In this document: one piece after another, positions 1-36,637 of the stretch
Layout: every line of letters begins with the position of its first letter
How positions within the stretch are numbered: the first letter of the stretch is position 1
DNA from: Mucilaginibacter lappiensis
GTDB lineage: Bacteria; Bacteroidota; Bacteroidia; Sphingobacteriales; Sphingobacteriaceae
Assembly (NCBI RefSeq): GCF_900155965.1
Contig: NZ_FTMG01000003.1
Coordinates: 62,001-126,000, forward strand
Direction of reading: 5' to 3'
DNA length: 64,000 nt
Made by a program: the position numbers and the translations under genes
Notes under the pieces: model-generated
What the model was told of the DNA's origin: nothing
Seen by the model: only the letters and a program-made list of their open reading frames with translations
Databases searched by the model: none

Positions 1-18
1 TTTACTTTAAAAAAAAAT

Positions 19-531
19 TTAATTTTGCTCCTCAAGCAATAATTGCATAAAAAGCAGATCGAGCCAGCGATTAAACTTAAAACCGACCTCTTTAAAGTGC
101 GCAACCTGCCTGAAACCCAATGACTGGTGCAAATGATAACTGATTTGATTTTCGCTGTCGATACCGGCTATTACAGCATGAATACCATTTTTTCGTGCTA
201 TATCAATAAGCGGCCGGAGTAAAAGTTTGCTGATACCTTGTCCTTGAAATACTGGATCTATATAAACAGAATGCTCAACAGTATACCTATAACATGGCCA
301 TATCCTGAAATGCCCATAAGTGCAAAAGCCAGCTATCTTCCCGCCTGTTTCTGCCACCAATACCGGAAAGCCATTATCTATTCTGTCCTGATACCATGCC
401 TGGCGCATTTCTGGCGTATGAGGCCGCTCGCTGTAAACGGCAGTAGTGTTTAATATGGCATCGTTATAGATGTACAGAATGGCAGGTAAATCGGCCTCAT
501 TCGCATTTCTGACATTTATTATACTATTCAT
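19..531 (-). CDS. GNAT family N-acetyltransferase (Pat/Bar-like)
   Basis: The 170-residue protein is a single GNAT domain that would transfer an acetyl group from acetyl-CoA to an amine. The acetyl-CoA pyrophosphate loop is visible at residues 96-101 (QGQGIS), followed by a helix rich in Leu. The order (N-terminal AxxxDLPAILxIYN, the central IAGFCTYG strand, then VEHSVYI and the C-terminal YHLHQSLGF) matches the phosphinothricin/L-amino-acid N-acetyltransferase group. The true substrate cannot be read from sequence; family members acetylate methionine sulfoximine-like compounds or other amino-acid analogues. It stands alone, with a hairpin terminator of the next gene about 10 bases upstream of its start. 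Confidence 0.85.
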   Translation of the reverse strand: MNSIINVRNANEADLPAILYIYNDAILNTTAVYSERPHTPEMRQAWYQDRIDNGFPVLVAETGGKIAGFCTYGHFRIWPCYRYTVEHSVYIDPVFQGQGISKLLLRPLIDIARKNGIHAVIAGIDSENQISYHLHQSLGFRQVAHFKEVGFKFNRWLDLLFMQLLLEEQN

Positions 532-30478: not shown

Positions 30479-31327
30479 ATGGATATCATCAGACGAGACA
30501 ACATTACCTACGAGGGGTTTATGGAAGAGCATTATAAACCCGGCATACCGCTGGTGTTTACCAATGCTGCCAAAGTGTGGAAGGCTAATGGGCTGTTTAG
30601 TCCGGATTGGTTCCGTGAAAATTACCCTGACCGTAAAACCGATTGTCGCGGTATCACCTACACCATGCGGCAGGTGATGGATATGGTGGAGGCTGCTACC
30701 GAGGAAAATCCAGCACCTTACCCTATCATCTTTGATATCCCTACCACCCTGCCCGAAGTATTACCGCTACTTGATCCGCTTGATTTGAACTATGCATCGC
30801 CCAACTGGCTGAAAAATAAAATGTTCAGCATTGGTAAATGGGGCGGCGCTACCGAAATGTTTATAGGTGGCCCGGGCGGCAGGTTCCCTTACATGCACAT
30901 TGATTATTACCACCTGAATGCCTGGATAACCCAGTTGTATGGCGAAAAGCGTTTCACCGTTTTCCCACGCGGGCAGGAACATCTGCTTTACCCCCGTCCG
31001 GATGATCCCTGGCGCTCGGAGCTCAATGTATTTGAGCCTGATTACGAGAAATACCCACTGTTTAAAGATGCTACGCCCATTAATTTTGTGATTGGTCCTG
31101 GTGAAACGCTATTTATTCCCTTTGGTACCTGGCATACGGCTTATTCGCTTACACCTACCATTTCTGTTGCTTTTGATACCCTGAACAGCAAAAACCACAA
31201 GGAATTTATGAAGGATGTATGGACCTTTAAAAAACGCGATAGTAAATTGAAAGCTGTAGCTATGTATGCCTATGCCGCGGTGGCTACACAAACATCAAAG
31301 ATTGGTGAAGCTTTGAGGGGCCGGTAG
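30479..31327 (+). CDS. Cupin-like (JmjC-fold) protein, putative Fe(II)/2-oxoglutarate oxygenase
   Basis: This 282-residue protein has the cupin-8/JmjC fold. An N-terminal segment GIPLVFTNAAKVWKANGLFSPDWF matches the family. The iron triad is visible as H140-x-D142 in PYMHIDYYH and H219 in LFIPFGTWHTAYSL, with the intervening strands AWITQLYGEKRFTVFPRGQEHLLYP. Family members hydroxylate protein side chains or small molecules; the target is not predictable. It is divergent from the glycosyltransferase gene, which may suggest a shared surface-glycan or modification role. Confidence 0.85.
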   Translation: MDIIRRDNITYEGFMEEHYKPGIPLVFTNAAKVWKANGLFSPDWFRENYPDRKTDCRGITYTMRQVMDMVEAATEENPAPYPIIFDIPTTLPEVLPLLDPLDLNYASPNWLKNKMFSIGKWGGATEMFIGGPGGRFPYMHIDYYHLNAWITQLYGEKRFTVFPRGQEHLLYPRPDDPWRSELNVFEPDYEKYPLFKDATPINFVIGPGETLFIPFGTWHTAYSLTPTISVAFDTLNSKNHKEFMKDVWTFKKRDSKLKAVAMYAYAAVATQTSKIGEALRGR

Positions 31328-32838: not shown

Positions 32839-32960
32839 GATTTCGGAATTCGGATGTTCAATTTCGGATTTGTTTATGTATAGAATCAAAGATGTTTAAT
32901 TGAAGATTTAAATGCCTTTGCAAGTCAATAAATCCGAAATCGAACATCCGAAATCCGACA
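32839..32960. repeat. Word-repeat inverted repeat (TTTCGGAT word)
   Basis: The left arm (32839-32871) repeats TTCGGAAT/TTCGGATG/TTTCGGATT and the right arm (32931-32960) is its near-complement with AATCCGAAATCGAACATCCG. It follows nuoD. Confidence 0.8.
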
Positions 32961-32961
32961 T

Positions 32962-33023: not shown

Positions 33024-34130
33024 TTATTGATTGTAAACTTTAACCATGAAAACATAGTTTTTAAGTTTCTTTAACTGTTGGGGGCGACTTAAACCAGCCA
33101 GCGTGTTTTTGGTATTTAAAGTTAATGATTTACTTAATGAATCTGATGGGATATTCTGGATAGCTTTTAACAGATAAGCTGATTTTACAGCGAATGCCGC
33201 ACCTGCTACCTGTGTTTGCTTGGCATTAATGATACCAACCACATTGCCTCTATCATCCAGCAGCGGGCCACCACTATTACCCGGGTTAACCGGAATGGAA
33301 ACCTGGTATTCGGTAGTATCTCCCTGGTAACCAGTTGCTGAGGTTAATGACCCCAAACCATAAACCACCTTACTATCCGGATAACCAATAGTGAATACGT
33401 TTTCACCAAGATCTGTAGATGAACGCTTAAAGTTATAAGGTACTGCACCCAATCCTTCAAAGGCTTCATCATTGATCTGTAATACAGCTATATCATTTGC
33501 AGGTTCGGTATAGATCACCTTGCTGTGGAATGATTCGCCGTTTGCATTTTGCACATAAACAGAATCAGCATCCTTAATCACGTGGTAATTGGTAACGATA
33601 TACCCGTTTGACGAAAGCGCGAAACCTGTTCCTCTGAAATTACCTGGGTTAGTAACTCTCTTACTTCCTTTGATATCGTTTATAATACTGTTGGTACGGG
33701 TATTCAGCGTCTCTTGGGAATGTTTAATCTTACCGATCTCCTGGCTTAACTGCTCAAAATTCGATTCATGACTATTCAGTTTACCAGTGAGGAATAGCGT
33801 ACCCAAAATAGCAAAAATAGCTATAGAGGCGGCCACTGATATTTTAGAATGGTGATTTCTCCACATGCGCACTACCCAGGTTGGATGGATGGTTACTTCC
33901 TCTTTCAAGGCATGTACATCAATCTCGTCATGAATAGCATTTAAACGTTTTTCAAGCTCCAGGCGCTCACCGTATTGTTTTAGTAAACCAATAAACTGCA
34001 GGTGCTCGGTAACCCGGCTTTCTACAGTTGCATCGTTTTTGCGGAGCAATTCAAACTGGGTACCTTCTTCGGCGGTCATGCTGCCGTCAAGGTACCTTTC
34101 AATTAATTCCGTAAGTTGGTTATCACTCAT
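33024..34130 (-). CDS. Anti-sigma-like membrane protein fused to a periplasmic trypsin-like (S1C) protease
   Basis: The 368-residue protein has three parts. Residues 1-90 are a helical, acidic cytoplasmic domain (MSDNQLTELIERYLDGSMTA opens it) resembling the N-termini of Bacteroidota anti-sigma factors. A single membrane helix follows at about 97-115, then a likely coiled coil (120-155). Residues 165-325 are a DegP/HtrA-like serine protease domain with His183 (TNYHV), Asp213 (NDIAVL) and Ser286 (NPGNSGGPL), so the triad is complete. There is no PDZ domain. The gene follows the sigma factor gene on the same strand by 12 bases. I infer that it holds the sigma factor and senses or processes an envelope signal. 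Confidence 0.85.
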   Translation of the reverse strand: MSDNQLTELIERYLDGSMTAEEGTQFELLRKNDATVESRVTEHLQFIGLLKQYGERLELEKRLNAIHDEIDVHALKEEVTIHPTWVVRMWRNHHSKISVAASIAIFAILGTLFLTGKLNSHESNFEQLSQEIGKIKHSQETLNTRTNSIINDIKGSKRVTNPGNFRGTGFALSSNGYIVTNYHVIKDADSVYVQNANGESFHSKVIYTEPANDIAVLQINDEAFEGLGAVPYNFKRSSTDLGENVFTIGYPDSKVVYGLGSLTSATGYQGDTTEYQVSIPVNPGNSGGPLLDDRGNVVGIINAKQTQVAGAAFAVKSAYLLKAIQNIPSDSLSKSLTLNTKNTLAGLSRPQQLKKLKNYVFMVKVYNQ

Positions 34131-34142
34131 CTCTTAAACTCC

Positions 34143-34712
34143 TTATTTCTGCTGAAAAAACAGCTTTTTGAGCCTTTGCAGGCATTTATATTTTTGTGTT
34201 TTGGCATTATCAGCATTAGTATAGCCAAAACGCTCGCAGATATCCTGCATTGATCTGTTATGTATATAAAAATCTTCCATAATGGTTTTGCAGGGCTCAC
34301 CCAGCAATTGCAGGGCACTTTCCATTTTACTAAACTGGATATCCCTTTCATTATGGTCATCAACCTCTTCTTCTACCGGCAGGTATTCTTCAAAATCACG
34401 GATATCGCCCCCGTACCTGTTCATATGGCTCAATCTTTTAAGCCAGAGCCGGCGGCAAACCGAATAGATATAAGTTTTAAGCTTACTGCTCAATTCAAAC
34501 TTGCCCGATTTGATTTTATTATAAAGAACGATGATGGCTTCCTGGTAAATATCTTTGGCATCATCCTCATCTCCGTTGTTATTGACAATTAACTGTAGTA
34601 TCATCGGAAAATAGGTAGTGTATAACTTTTTTAACACTATTTCCGAGTTGTTAAGTATACCAAGAACTATCTCGCTATCTGTTGGTGCCGAAGTCTTTAA
34701 CTCTTTATTCAC
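34143..34712 (-). CDS. RNA polymerase sigma-70 family (ECF-like) sigma factor
   Basis: A 189-residue sigma factor with region 2 at about residues 24-95 (ILNNSEIVLKKLYTTYFPMI, then DDAKDIYQEAIIVLYNKIKSG, then LKTYIYSVCRRLWLKRL) and region 4 at about 130-185 (LGEPCKTIMEDFYIHNRSMQDICERFGYTNADNAKTQKYKCLQRLKKLF). The start is GTG at 34712. The membrane anti-sigma/protease gene follows by 12 bases. Two copies of the GGGTTAC-N16-TATTAA site lie upstream on the same strand, so autoregulation is likely. The proximal copy is so close to the GTG that a transcript from it would begin at or after the start codon; the distal copy leaves a leader of about 120 bases. Confidence 0.9.
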   Translation of the reverse strand: MNKELKTSAPTDSEIVLGILNNSEIVLKKLYTTYFPMILQLIVNNNGDEDDAKDIYQEAIIVLYNKIKSGKFELSSKLKTYIYSVCRRLWLKRLSHMNRYGGDIRDFEEYLPVEEEVDDHNERDIQFSKMESALQLLGEPCKTIMEDFYIHNRSMQDICERFGYTNADNAKTQKYKCLQRLKKLFFQQK

Positions 34713-34714
34713 TC

Positions 34715-34743
34715 TTAATACTATTTATACGAAATTGTAACCC
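34715..34743 (-). promoter_or_regulatory. Sigma-type promoter motif, proximal to the sigma gene
   Basis: On the minus strand GGGTTAC (34743-34737), 16 bases, TATTAA (34720-34715). The -10-like box ends two bases from the GTG start codon, so its use as a promoter for the full-length protein is doubtful. Confidence 0.6.
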
Positions 34744-34839
34744 ATCATTATAAAAAATAATTTAACTAAAATAAATTATTAGTACCAACGCGGATATTTA
34801 GTGTTGTAACAATTATACGCCCGAATGTTTTATTCGTTT

Positions 34840-34868
34840 TTAATACTATAATTTAAACAAGGTAACCC
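34840..34868 (-). promoter_or_regulatory. Sigma-type promoter motif, distal to the sigma gene
   Basis: On the minus strand GGGTTAC (34868-34862), 16 bases, TATTAA (34845-34840), with the same G just before TATTAA as in the other copies. It lies 128 bases upstream of the sigma start codon. Confidence 0.75.
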
Positions 34869-34983
34869 AAGCCTTTTTTACCCCGTTTTTTATCAGGCGG
34901 CAAATCTGCAATAAAAAAAAACGGCCTCAAAAATATTTTGTTAATCAAAGCCCCTACACGCTATTTCCCTCCAGCAGCCAATT

Positions 34984-35012
34984 AGGTTACCTTTTTATTT
35001 TTATGGTATTAA
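34984..35012 (+). promoter_or_regulatory. Sigma-type promoter motif before lipoprotein 1
   Basis: AGGTTAC at 34984-34990, 16 bases, TATTAA at 35007-35012; 38 bases separate it from the ATG. Confidence 0.75.
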
Positions 35013-35050
35013 TATCAAAAACAAACAATTAAAACTTAAAACATATCCAA

Positions 35051-35275
35051 ATGAAAAATTCAATCAAAACCGGCTTAGCCGCATTAGTTATTGCCATTTC
35101 TTTCTCAGCTTGCGGCGGTCATGCTTCAAAAACACCGACTGACTCAGCAAAAACCAGCGCTACTAAAATTGATTCAGCCAAAATTGATTCGGCTAAAACG
35201 CTTGCTGCCGACTCTGCCACAGCTGCTGCTGCCGACTCCGCTACGGCTGTTCTTTCCGATTCAACTAAAAAATAA
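35051..35275 (+). CDS. DSAK-repeat lipoprotein, paralogue 1
   Basis: This 74-residue protein has a lipoprotein signal with a lipobox ending at Cys21 (ALVIAISFSAC). The mature part is low-complexity, made of repeated Asp-Ser-Ala-Lys/Thr units (TDSAKTSATKIDSAKIDSAK, then DSATAAAADSATAVLSDSTKK). It contains no aromatic residue after the lipobox and no folded-domain pattern. It is the first of three tandem paralogues, each with the same promoter-like motif. The role is unknown; a flexible envelope-tethered spacer or a sacrificial substrate of the neighbouring protease is speculation. Confidence 0.75.
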   Translation: MKNSIKTGLAALVIAISFSACGGHASKTPTDSAKTSATKIDSAKIDSAKTLAADSATAAAADSATAVLSDSTKK

Positions 35276-35378
35276 CAAGTAACCCACAAACAAATAAAAA
35301 TCTTATACCTTTTTTTAACCTGTTTATCAGTTATTTACAAACAATAAAAGGTAATTTATATTTTTCTTGAAAAAACTT

Positions 35379-35407
35379 GGGTTACCTTTTATTCCTAAAA
35401 GTATTAA
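35379..35407 (+). promoter_or_regulatory. Sigma-type promoter motif before lipoprotein 2
   Basis: GGGTTAC at 35379-35385, 16 bases, TATTAA at 35402-35407; 45 bases before the ATG. AAAAGGTAA about 25 bases upstream makes an inverted repeat with TTACCTTTT of the site. Confidence 0.78.
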
Positions 35408-35452
35408 CACTCGAAAACGATCACAAAATATTTAAATTTTAAAACTCACAAA

Positions 35453-35677
35453 ATGAAAAATTCATTCAAATTAGGTTTCTTAGCTTTAGCTATCGCTGTT
35501 TCTTTCGCTGCTTGTAAAGGTTCTGGTTCAGCTTCAACTACTGATTCAACTGCTAAAGCTGATTCTACTAAAGTTGATTCTGCTAAAACTGATTCAGCTA
35601 CTAAAGTTGACTCTACTGCTAAAGCTGGTGCAACTAAAGTTGACTCAGTTAAAAAAGATACTGCTGCTAAGAAATAA
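35453..35677 (+). CDS. DSAK-repeat lipoprotein, paralogue 2
   Basis: The 74-residue paralogue has a nearly identical signal (MKNSFKLGFLALAIAVSFAAC, lipobox Cys21) followed by KGSGSAS. The rest is repeated DS(T/A)(K/A) units: TDSTAKADSTKVDSAKTDSA continues to VDSVKKDTAAKK. Acidic and basic residues alternate regularly. The signal peptide and KGSGSA start are shared with paralogue 3, showing recent duplication. Mature residues next to Cys are Lys-Gly-Ser rather than the acidic surface-export signal reported for Bacteroidota lipoproteins, so periplasmic-face anchoring is more likely (inference). Confidence 0.78.
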   Translation: MKNSFKLGFLALAIAVSFAACKGSGSASTTDSTAKADSTKVDSAKTDSATKVDSTAKAGATKVDSVKKDTAAKK

Positions 35678-35689
35678 TTTTACCACAAT

Positions 35690-35730
35690 AAAAAAGGCTT
35701 TAGAAATATAATTTCTGATTCCTTTTTATT
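35690..35730 (+). terminator. Terminator after lipoprotein 2
   Basis: AAAAAGGCTTTAGAAAT pairs with ATTTCTGATTCCTTTTT, an interrupted stem followed by ATTG. Confidence 0.6.
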
Positions 35731-35788
35731 GATTTTTTAGTTATTCGTTAATTTATAAAAGGTAATCTGTAATTTTTTTTAAAATTAT

Positions 35789-35817
35789 GGGTTACCTTTT
35801 GTTGTTTACTGTATTAA
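35789..35817 (+). promoter_or_regulatory. Sigma-type promoter motif before lipoprotein 3
   Basis: GGGTTAC at 35789-35795, 16 bases, TATTAA at 35812-35817; 37 bases before the ATG. As before lipoprotein 2, an AAAAGGTAA copy lies upstream in inverse orientation. Confidence 0.78.
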
Positions 35818-35854
35818 CAACAAAACTATTAAATCACTTATTAAAAAATTAAAC

Positions 35855-36073
35855 ATGAAAAATTCATTCAAACTTGGCTTTTTAGCCCTGGCTATCGCTA
35901 CTTCATTTGCTGCTTGTAAAGGTTCTGGTTCGGCAGCAGGTGCTGATTCAGCAAAAATGGACTCAGCTAAAATGGATTCAGCTAAAACTACTGCTGTTGA
36001 TTCAACTAAAATGTCAATGAAAGATTCTACTAAAATGGATTCAGCTAAAAAAGACACAGCTAAAAAAATGTAA
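35855..36073 (+). CDS. DSAK-repeat lipoprotein, paralogue 3
   Basis: A 72-residue paralogue with the same signal peptide and KGSGSA start after Cys21. The repeats here are mostly Met-Asp-Ser-Ala-Lys (ADSAKMDSAKMDSAKTTAVD, then KMSMKDSTKMDSAKKDTAKK). A strong terminator follows at 36096-36126. The methionines in the repeat are peculiar to this copy. Confidence 0.78.
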   Translation: MKNSFKLGFLALAIATSFAACKGSGSAAGADSAKMDSAKMDSAKTTAVDSTKMSMKDSTKMDSAKKDTAKKM

Positions 36074-36095
36074 TTTTTCTTTTTTTAGAAACAAA

Positions 36096-36126
36096 GAAAC
36101 GCCCTGGTTTACCGGGGCGTTTTTTG
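36096..36126 (+). terminator. Terminator after lipoprotein 3
   Basis: AACGCCCTGG and CCGGGGCGTT form the stem, followed by TTTTT. Confidence 0.9.
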
Positions 36127-36193: not shown

Positions 36194-36637
36194 ATGAAAT
36201 ATTCGGAATGGCAATTACTCAGTAAAGACGAGCGCAAAACTATAGGCTGGCACCGGCACCCCCATATTAAAACGGCCACGCTTTTTAGCATCACTTTTAT
36301 TATAGTTTTTATTGCGGTAATTTTTGGTATCAGCAAAAACAGTACGGTACACCTTAATCGTAAACCTACGGGCCAGGAAGCTTTTAATATGGCCCGGGGA
36401 ATTGTAAAAGATCATTTAAAGCAACCCTCAACCGCCCTGTTTCCTGATCGTGATTTTAAGCCGTTGATTGACACTGCTACCAATAGCTACCAGATCCAAT
36501 CAACCGTAAAAGCCTTAAACGCTACCGGCAAAACAATAAATTCTGTTTGGGTGGTGGATATGAATTACACAGGTGGCGATTGGTCTGAAAAAACAAGCTG
36601 GCAGGTTAAATCTGTAAGCATATCGCCAGAAAACTAA
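36194..36637 (+). CDS. Single-pass membrane protein, function unknown
   Basis: The 147-residue protein has an N-terminal cytoplasmic segment, one membrane helix (about residues 28-48, LFSITFIIVFIAVIFGI) and a 95-residue extracytoplasmic domain. The latter contains ARGIVKDHLKQPSTALFPDRDFKP and SYQIQSTVKALNATGKTINSVWVVDMNYTGGDW, a pattern seen in small exported domains with four or five strands (cytochrome-c-oxidase-assembly-like 'FMNxxxWxxx' groups are not a good match). I cannot assign a family. It is not preceded by the sigma-type motif. Confidence 0.65.
   Translation: MKYSEWQLLSKDERKTIGWHRHPHIKTATLFSITFIIVFIAVIFGISKNSTVHLNRKPTGQEAFNMARGIVKDHLKQPSTALFPDRDFKPLIDTATNSYQIQSTVKALNATGKTINSVWVVDMNYTGGDWSEKTSWQVKSVSISPEN

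Follow-up and report, generated by a model that had tools for sequence, protein, structure and literature searches.

A predicted autoregulated ECF sigma factor module with a built-in DegS-like protease domain and sequon-rich lipoproteins in Mucilaginibacter lappiensis

What does a sigma factor control when one sequence motif faces its own gene twice and also precedes each of three small lipoprotein genes beside it? The question is raised by a locus in a 64,000-nucleotide (nt) stretch of Mucilaginibacter lappiensis DNA (contig NZ_FTMG01000003.1, positions 62,001 to 126,000; the whole stretch is called the window here). An initial annotation, made from the sequence alone, proposed that the extracytoplasmic function (ECF) sigma factor drives itself, a membrane anti-sigma factor/protease and the lipoproteins as a self-contained envelope-response unit. 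Our answer is that the locus is quite probably an autoregulated ECF sigma/anti-sigma module with a built-in DegS-like protease and a sequon-rich lipoprotein output. Strong comparative evidence indicates that the sigma factor is autoregulated and uses the motif GGGTTAC-N15/16-GTATTAA as its −35 and −10 elements. It would transcribe its own gene and the downstream anti-sigma gene. In most cases it would also transcribe between one and three small divergent lipoprotein genes, with a separate copy of the motif for each. The promoter assignment is comparative, and the sigma protein itself presumably recognises the motif directly.

The motif and its sigma factor

The initial annotation placed the sigma, anti-sigma/protease and lipoprotein genes correctly, and its five copies of RGGTTAC-N15-GTATTAA are exact (Table 1). 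Its distance of 37-45 bases from motif to ATG was measured as 38, 45 and 37 nt for the three lipoproteins. At up to two mismatches the window holds six matches, against a shuffle mean of 1.40 (maximum 5), and none of 100 shuffles reaches six; the sixth match, at position 30904, has two mismatches. A search of the whole genome (6.79 Mb), as the initial annotation had proposed, found seven exact matches to the 28-base pattern GGTTAC-N15-GTATTAA, five of them at the locus, and none to the backwards-read control. The same seven were found when the pattern was shortened by one base (control, three). Exact copies are concentrated at the locus. At up to one mismatch there are 22 matches against 17 for the backwards control, so near-matches outside the locus are background, and a large regulon across this genome is unsupported. 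Sigma-70-type promoters in the region are also at background level (4, against 5.6 in shuffles).

Conservation was followed in loci from relatives. The main sample consists of 80 loci (L147-L226) fetched by sigma alignment, the best 80 of 578 confirmed, and is therefore mostly from Mucilaginibacter and Pedobacter; the 46 best records found by sigma alignment show 77-93% identity. A distant sample of 13 loci (L085-L097) was fetched by the anti-sigma protein. Another set (L031-L060) was fetched by the motif, which makes its counts of 77/82 and 124/126 partly circular, and the conclusions rest on the other loci. Shuffles for the locus spacing, sequon and distant-locus tests keep composition only, not dinucleotides.

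The gene order in relatives, another check that had been suggested, is strongly kept. In all 80 loci of the main sample the anti-sigma/protease gene lies directly downstream of the sigma gene on the same strand; counting the stop codon, its first residue follows residue 189 of the sigma factor at an offset of 2-26 nt (median 15). The autogenous site is present at up to one mismatch in 78. Within 1500 nt there are 151 divergent sites, 147 of which are followed by a lipoprotein gene at a median of 36 nt (5-95% range 24-46 nt); after the other four, no ATG reading frame of at least 40 codons was found within 150 nt. The number of lipoproteins per locus is zero in 4 loci, one in 24, two in 33 and three in 19. 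The spacing between the two blocks is strict: N15 accounts for 206 pairs and N16 for 24, the spacings 6, 14 and 24 occur once each, and shuffled regions have none at N15. Many of the N16 sites are second, upstream sigma-facing copies, and at least two exact sigma-facing sites (N14-16) within 400 nt occur in 29/80 loci, as in the window.

Across 151 genomes of the family, a sigma orthologue was found in 136 (150/151 in a second draw from the same family, with partly overlapping genomes) and the exact motif in 135. Crossing the two tables by eye gave 132 genomes with both, 4 with sigma only, 3 with the motif only and 12 with neither. The motif is thus present in 132/136 genomes with the sigma gene against 3/15 without it (Fisher p 4e-12, nominal since the genomes are related).

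Further out, 27 of 296 phylum genomes match the anti-sigma/protease at E 1e-30. Of these, 8 belong to the home family and 13 to three further families within the class, and the remaining 6 match in the protease part only. The last six (L098-L103) were rejected as instances of the module; two of them were inspected and have no anti-sigma start. All 13 loci of the distant sample have an adjacent sigma gene, whose product is 42-54% identical to the window's. Allowing N14-16 and up to one mismatch, a sigma-facing site, spaced N15-16, is present in 13/13 and a divergent one in 10/13, against 0.8% of shuffled sigma-facing regions. Downstream of the site, 9/13 loci have the frame of a small lipoprotein rich in DT/DS, and L089, L094 and L097 have a similar frame.

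A chance motif is ruled out by the window shuffles, the genome controls and the recurrence in relatives. Simple block duplication, which the initial annotation had already discounted, is ruled out as well: the spacers differ, and the sigma-facing and lipoprotein forms diverge after GGGTTAC, where the next-but-one base is A in 0.91 of sigma-facing sites and T in 1.00 of lipoprotein sites.

The sigma protein scores 69.7 bits against TIGR02937 (sigma70-ECF; curated cut-off 42.9) and 31.8 bits against Pfam Sigma70_r2 (cut-off 24). It falls below the cut-off for the NCBIfam subfamilies among the best 25 of 40 matches, the top one being Sig70_bacteroi1 (49.3 against 126.4). With the sigma alignment as a profile, SigW is the closest sequence in PDB (E 2.7e-7). 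The region-4 stretch GYTNADNAKTQKYKC of the sigma protein is nearly invariant in 23 aligned orthologues, and GYTNADNAK[TN]QKYKC hardly varies even though the distant proteins are so diverged overall, as expected if the −35 element is fixed.

Table 1. Positions of the module's genes, candidate promoters and hairpins in the window
Feature	Position	Strand	Remarks
Anti-sigma/protease, 368 aa	33024..34130	-	12 nt downstream of sigma stop codon
Anti-sigma-like domain	residues ~1-80		
Membrane helix	residues ~96-115		by eye
Helical linker	residues ~120-155		
DegS-like protease without PDZ	residues ~160-330		followed by a conserved C-terminal tail
ECF sigma factor, 189 aa	34143..34712	-	GTG start; TIGR02937, Pfam Sigma70_r2, conserved region 4
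P1, predicted autogenous promoter	34715..34743	-	GGGTTAC-N15-GTATTAA, exact match; ends 2 nt before sigma GTG start
P2, predicted second sigma-facing promoter, upstream	34840..34868	-	exact match; leader ~125 nt
Predicted promoter of lipoprotein 1	34984..35012	+	exact match
Lipoprotein 1, 74 aa	35051..35275	+	6 D[ST][AILVMT] sequons
Hairpin, 3′ arm is −35 element GGGTTACCTTTT of lipoprotein 2	35345..35391	+	−13.7 kcal/mol (stretch fold); possible lipoprotein 1 terminator
Predicted promoter of lipoprotein 2	35379..35407	+	exact match
Lipoprotein 2, 74 aa	35453..35677	+	7 sequons; weak PG1828_fam_lipo match
Hairpin overlapping −35 of lipoprotein 3	35755..35802	+	−20.7 kcal/mol (stretch fold); possible lipoprotein 2 terminator
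Predicted promoter of lipoprotein 3	35789..35817	+	exact match
Lipoprotein 3, 72 aa	35855..36073	+	7 sequons
G+C-rich hairpin and T run, likely terminator	36100..36125	+	by eye; absent from the terminator scan's list

Start codon, tandem promoters and hairpins

The initial annotation overlooked how close P1 lies to the sigma start codon. The same closeness is found in relatives: the autogenous site ends 2-3 nt before sigma residue 1 in 72 of the 78 loci that have such a site, and distances of 13-17 nt occur in a few. An in-frame stop lies within or after the −10 element in 57/79 loci with an exact site, so that translation there must start after the −10. In 37 of those 57 a stretch of 20 codons offers a single possible start codon, which in 34/37 stands exactly 3 nt after GTATTAA. 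SigW-type promoters place the transcription start some 6-7 nt past the GTA core; a start at that distance here would put the first base of the message at the GTG itself. The usual position of the −10, 2-3 nt before the start codon, thus suggests that the promoter nearest the sigma gene would give a leaderless message. The P2 transcript would have an ordinary leader, in whose translated ~125 nt no lipoprotein-like reading frame was seen.

Behind the first lipoprotein the promoters have another peculiarity. In the window a hairpin sits at the −35 of the second and third lipoprotein promoters and not of the first. Among the relatives, at least 5/7 bases of the −35 arm GGGTTACCTTTT pair upstream in 27/52 second and 10/22 third-or-later promoters, against 19/75 first promoters and 28-32% with shuffled upstream DNA, so the hairpin is enriched only at second and later lipoprotein promoters. 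We read this, with some uncertainty, as one sequence shared by the preceding gene's terminator and the next gene's promoter; the short T run makes termination uncertain. The hairpin may alternatively be a protein-binding inverted repeat.

An inverted repeat of that kind would suit an explanation in which the motif is the binding site of another regulator, which controls the sigma operon and the lipoproteins while the sigma factor recognises something else. We consider this improbable. The sigma-facing copy does nearly touch the start codon, which is not where a promoter is usually found, and GGTTACC is mirrored upstream by AAAAGGTAA, in a manner resembling a possible dimer operator. The mirror, searched at up to one mismatch within 80 nt and only at sites with 150 nt upstream inside the searched stretch, is found in 37/120 lipoprotein promoters (shuffled words, mean 6, maximum 25) and in 19/86 sigma-facing sites (mean 4, maximum 21). 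Part of the latter, however, must be divergent lipoprotein promoters read backwards, and the pairing of the arm mainly at second and later promoters fits a terminator of the preceding gene better. The two-block motif itself is not palindromic and has the geometry of a −35/−10 pair (N15-16); it stands at a similar distance from 147 start codons and tracks the sigma gene across genomes.

The fusion protein and the lipoproteins

The initial annotation's 'membrane anti-sigma/protease' can be refined: the second gene product is best read as an anti-sigma-like domain, a membrane helix and a DegS-like protease without PDZ. The full model has a mean predicted local distance difference test score (pLDDT) of 80.6, with lower values (block means 45-64) over residues 61-160, which join both ends. 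One hydrophobic segment was seen, and the membrane helix read from it by eye falls mostly inside a predicted helix at 85-114. The protease part matches Pfam Trypsin_2 with 92.7 bits and finds as its best Foldseek match DegS without PDZ (E 3.4e-13). Its catalytic triad, H183/D213/S286, is intact. Over 95 aligned rows (the window's protein and 94 distinct others) the triad columns contain H in 88 rows, D in 89 and S in 82. All remaining positions are gaps, which belong to rows truncated at the end of the locus or to L103, which does not represent the fusion. No Pfam PDZ family was found in the protein up to E 0.1, and the model ends about 40 residues past the protease domain, hence our term 'DegS-like domain' and not DegS. 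An alignment of the fusion has 49 members; the home family supplies 36 of them and three other families together the remaining 13.

The N-terminal 96 residues modelled alone are helical (pLDDT 86.1). Their four best Foldseek rows (5wuq twice, 3hug and 6in7) are all chains of anti-sigma complexes (RsiW twice, RslA and MucA), at weak E of 1.2-2.6. VIA-align gave Z 6.6 for RsiW (root-mean-square deviation 5.0, 70 aligned), 5.7 and 5.6 for MucA (2.7, 54) and 5.5 for RslA (5.8, 63), the next row, unrelated, having Z 3.8; for helical bundles, Z values below about 13 count as weak. A weak zf-HC2 match was found in this domain in 20/47 members. Searched by sequence against PDB, the anti-sigma domain yielded nothing beyond chance-like matches to a fusion protein and to PPAR receptors, with E 0.005 at best. 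A Hemerythrin match of the domain (E 0.0026), which stays under its Pfam cut-off, was set aside.

Structure models point to a mechanism in which the cytoplasmic N-terminal helical domain would hold the sigma factor at the membrane and the membrane helix would link it to the periplasmic DegS-like serine protease. An envelope signal, presumably stress, would activate the protease to cut its own membrane-proximal linker or that of a neighbour; intramembrane proteolysis would then release the sigma factor. Self-cleavage in particular we infer.

The protease could instead be an independent quality-control enzyme within an otherwise correct module, with sigma release left to another site-1 protease. 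HtrA-type proteases commonly degrade misfolded proteins, and the search in Pfam turned up no PDZ domain able to sense a peptide. Against this, the fusion to an anti-sigma-like domain is kept in distant loci with the triad intact, which suggests a linked task. We regard the quality-control role as a real possibility, but one that commands the smaller share of our belief, and retain self-cleavage as the preferred reading.

None of the three window lipoproteins is above any Pfam or NCBIfam cut-off, and within its own genome the family has three clear members (E 2e-9 or better), all at the locus, and four further matches at E 0.001-0.5. In the 147 lipoproteins of the relatives (mature mean 49 residues; about 1% of letters masked as X), the triplet D[ST][AILVMT] occurs 5.27 times per protein (range 0-8) against 1.07 in shuffled sequences, and its count exceeds all 200 shuffles in 110. 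The available text of a review gives D-S/T-A/L/V/I/M/T as the O-glycosylation sequon of exported proteins in Bacteroidota and describes its Ser/Thr as generally near-fully substituted (PMC12871550). Since the triplet is this sequon, the lipoproteins may be mucin-like glycolipoproteins with arrays of O-glycosylation sites. A burst of such tiny proteins would then give short, lipid-anchored chains with dense glycans.

They may instead be no glycoproteins at all, the DS/DT repeats serving as disordered charged envelope spacers or tethers, or as protease decoys for feedback. We lean against this, without dismissing it. They consist predominantly of T, K, D, S, A and V, low-complexity repeats arise easily, and no protein family was found above cut-off. 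What speaks for glycosylation, apart from the near-full substitution described for such motifs, is order: 905/936 Asp precede Ser or Thr, and the sequon order D-[ST]-[AILVMT] averages 5.3 per protein, against 0.9, 1.0 and 2.5 for permuted orders.

Lipoprotein copies inside one locus differ in repeat unit (for example DSAKM and DSTV, in L015 and similar relatives). Differing repeat units behind a fixed promoter and signal peptide suggest fast repeat turnover.

Several observations weigh against the module as we read it. Four of the 136 family genomes with the sigma gene have no exact motif, and 2/80 loci lack an autogenous N15 site (L185 has an N16 site; none was found in L220). Ordinary promoters seldom have a −10 element that ends as close as 2-3 nt to the start codon. 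The loci are related, so that counts from them are not independent. No anti-sigma/protease match at E 1e-30 was found in 269/296 phylum genomes, and the fusion is therefore not phylum-wide at this sensitivity. The Foldseek E values of the N-terminal domain are above 1, and its Z values are low, as given above. Among the lipoproteins, the sequon count of 37/147 fails to surpass every one of the 200 shuffles, and at least one protein lacks sequons altogether; the array could be a by-product of low-complexity repeats. The fullest version of the proposal is a one-protein stress sensor, cutting itself or its neighbour in a trimer, present in at least four families of one Bacteroidota class, with mucin-like sequon lipoproteins as nearly its sole output, a leaderless sigma message and a −35 element doubling as the preceding gene's terminator arm; taken together, we think it doubtful.

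Sites beyond the locus and comparison with known systems

The proposal that the sigma factor drives itself, the anti-sigma/protease and the lipoproteins finds comparative support, with the refinement that relatives also have some sites before other envelope genes. Fourteen exact off-locus sites were picked by eye among the matches listed for the own and related genomes, and the protein families behind them were checked for one representative each. Eleven of the 14 lie 19-41 nt before a start codon, mostly that of an exported or membrane protein. The two in the window's own genome are L126, inside a long open reading frame, and L127 (near 1175-1203 of contig C25), 19 nt before the gene of a strongly hydrophobic, membrane-like protein of 105 aa with no Pfam match in its first 100 residues. 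In six genomes of one genus of the family (L130-L133, L136 and L137), a DUF4294 gene that has a glutathione peroxidase gene on its 3′ side is preceded, at 40-41 nt, by an exact motif. There the regulon is likely extended, perhaps to oxidative defence. The other genes encode a DUF4349 protein (L134), a DUF2459 protein (L139) and two similar lipoproteins (L129 and L135); the next frame is 172 nt away from site L128 and 309 nt away from L138.

Two neighbours of the module were also noted. An imperfect inverted repeat built on TTTCGGATGTTCGATTTCGGATTT (32840-32961) occupies the interval between the anti-sigma gene and its neighbour gene, which we take to be NADH dehydrogenase subunit D-like. Its core has 68 genome matches at up to two mismatches against 0 for the backwards control, which makes it an interspersed palindromic repeat family. 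On the other side, a 147-aa protein with a hydrophobic segment (36194-36637, +) adjoins lipoprotein 3; neither Pfam nor NCBIfam gave it a match at E 0.1.

This is a sigma module near-universal in one family, with a strict motif. That motif and a predicted regulon of almost one locus in the own genome make cause and effect testable. The module would show that a sensor protease and an anti-sigma factor can be one protein. The 78 sigma-facing and 147 lipoprotein sites are a training set for Bacteroidota ECF promoters. Should the lipoproteins prove to be O-glycosylated, an envelope response would be linked to the phylum's general O-glycosylation, the functions of which are described as still unclear in the available text of PMC12871550.

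ECF sigma/anti-sigma pairs are known as a kind; what may be new is the anti-sigma-like/DegS-like fusion, the small predicted regulon and the sequon-array lipoproteins. The initial annotation knew of no described system with this combination, and we likewise found no description of such a module in the literature searched, which did not take in the 2021 ECF reclassification. The PG1828 family (NF050142) also consists of small lipoproteins, and it matches lipoproteins 2 and 3 partially (35.1 and 28.8 bits), both below the family cut-off of 50. Exported proteins of the general O-glycosylation system carry the same sequon (PMC12871550, text available in part), whereas here whole mature proteins are largely sequons and are tied to one sigma factor. 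Known substrates would carry only scattered ones. Dma, likewise an anti-sigma factor of Bacteroidota, has additional envelope domains and is paired with an ECF sigma factor of its own; the part of its description available calls it dual membrane-spanning and in control of vesiculation, with 'trypsin' only in the methods. The SigW-RsiW pair of Bacillus subtilis supplies both the best PDB sequence match of the sigma factor and the best, though weak, fold match of the N-terminal domain. RsiW, to our knowledge, has no protease domain.

The nearest parallels are sigmaE-RseA-DegS of Escherichia coli and AlgU-MucA-AlgW, in which an ECF sigma factor is held by a membrane anti-sigma factor subject to a DegS-type site-1 protease, and the folds found here match DegS and, weakly, MucA. 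The E. coli sigmaE system, too, is autoregulated, and its envelope regulon is large. In the available text of PMC8103513, DegS is the site-1 protease of that system. There the protease is a separate protein, whereas here a single 368-aa fusion, in which no PDZ sensor was found, would combine both roles, and the regulon predicted for it hardly goes beyond a single locus of tiny lipoproteins.

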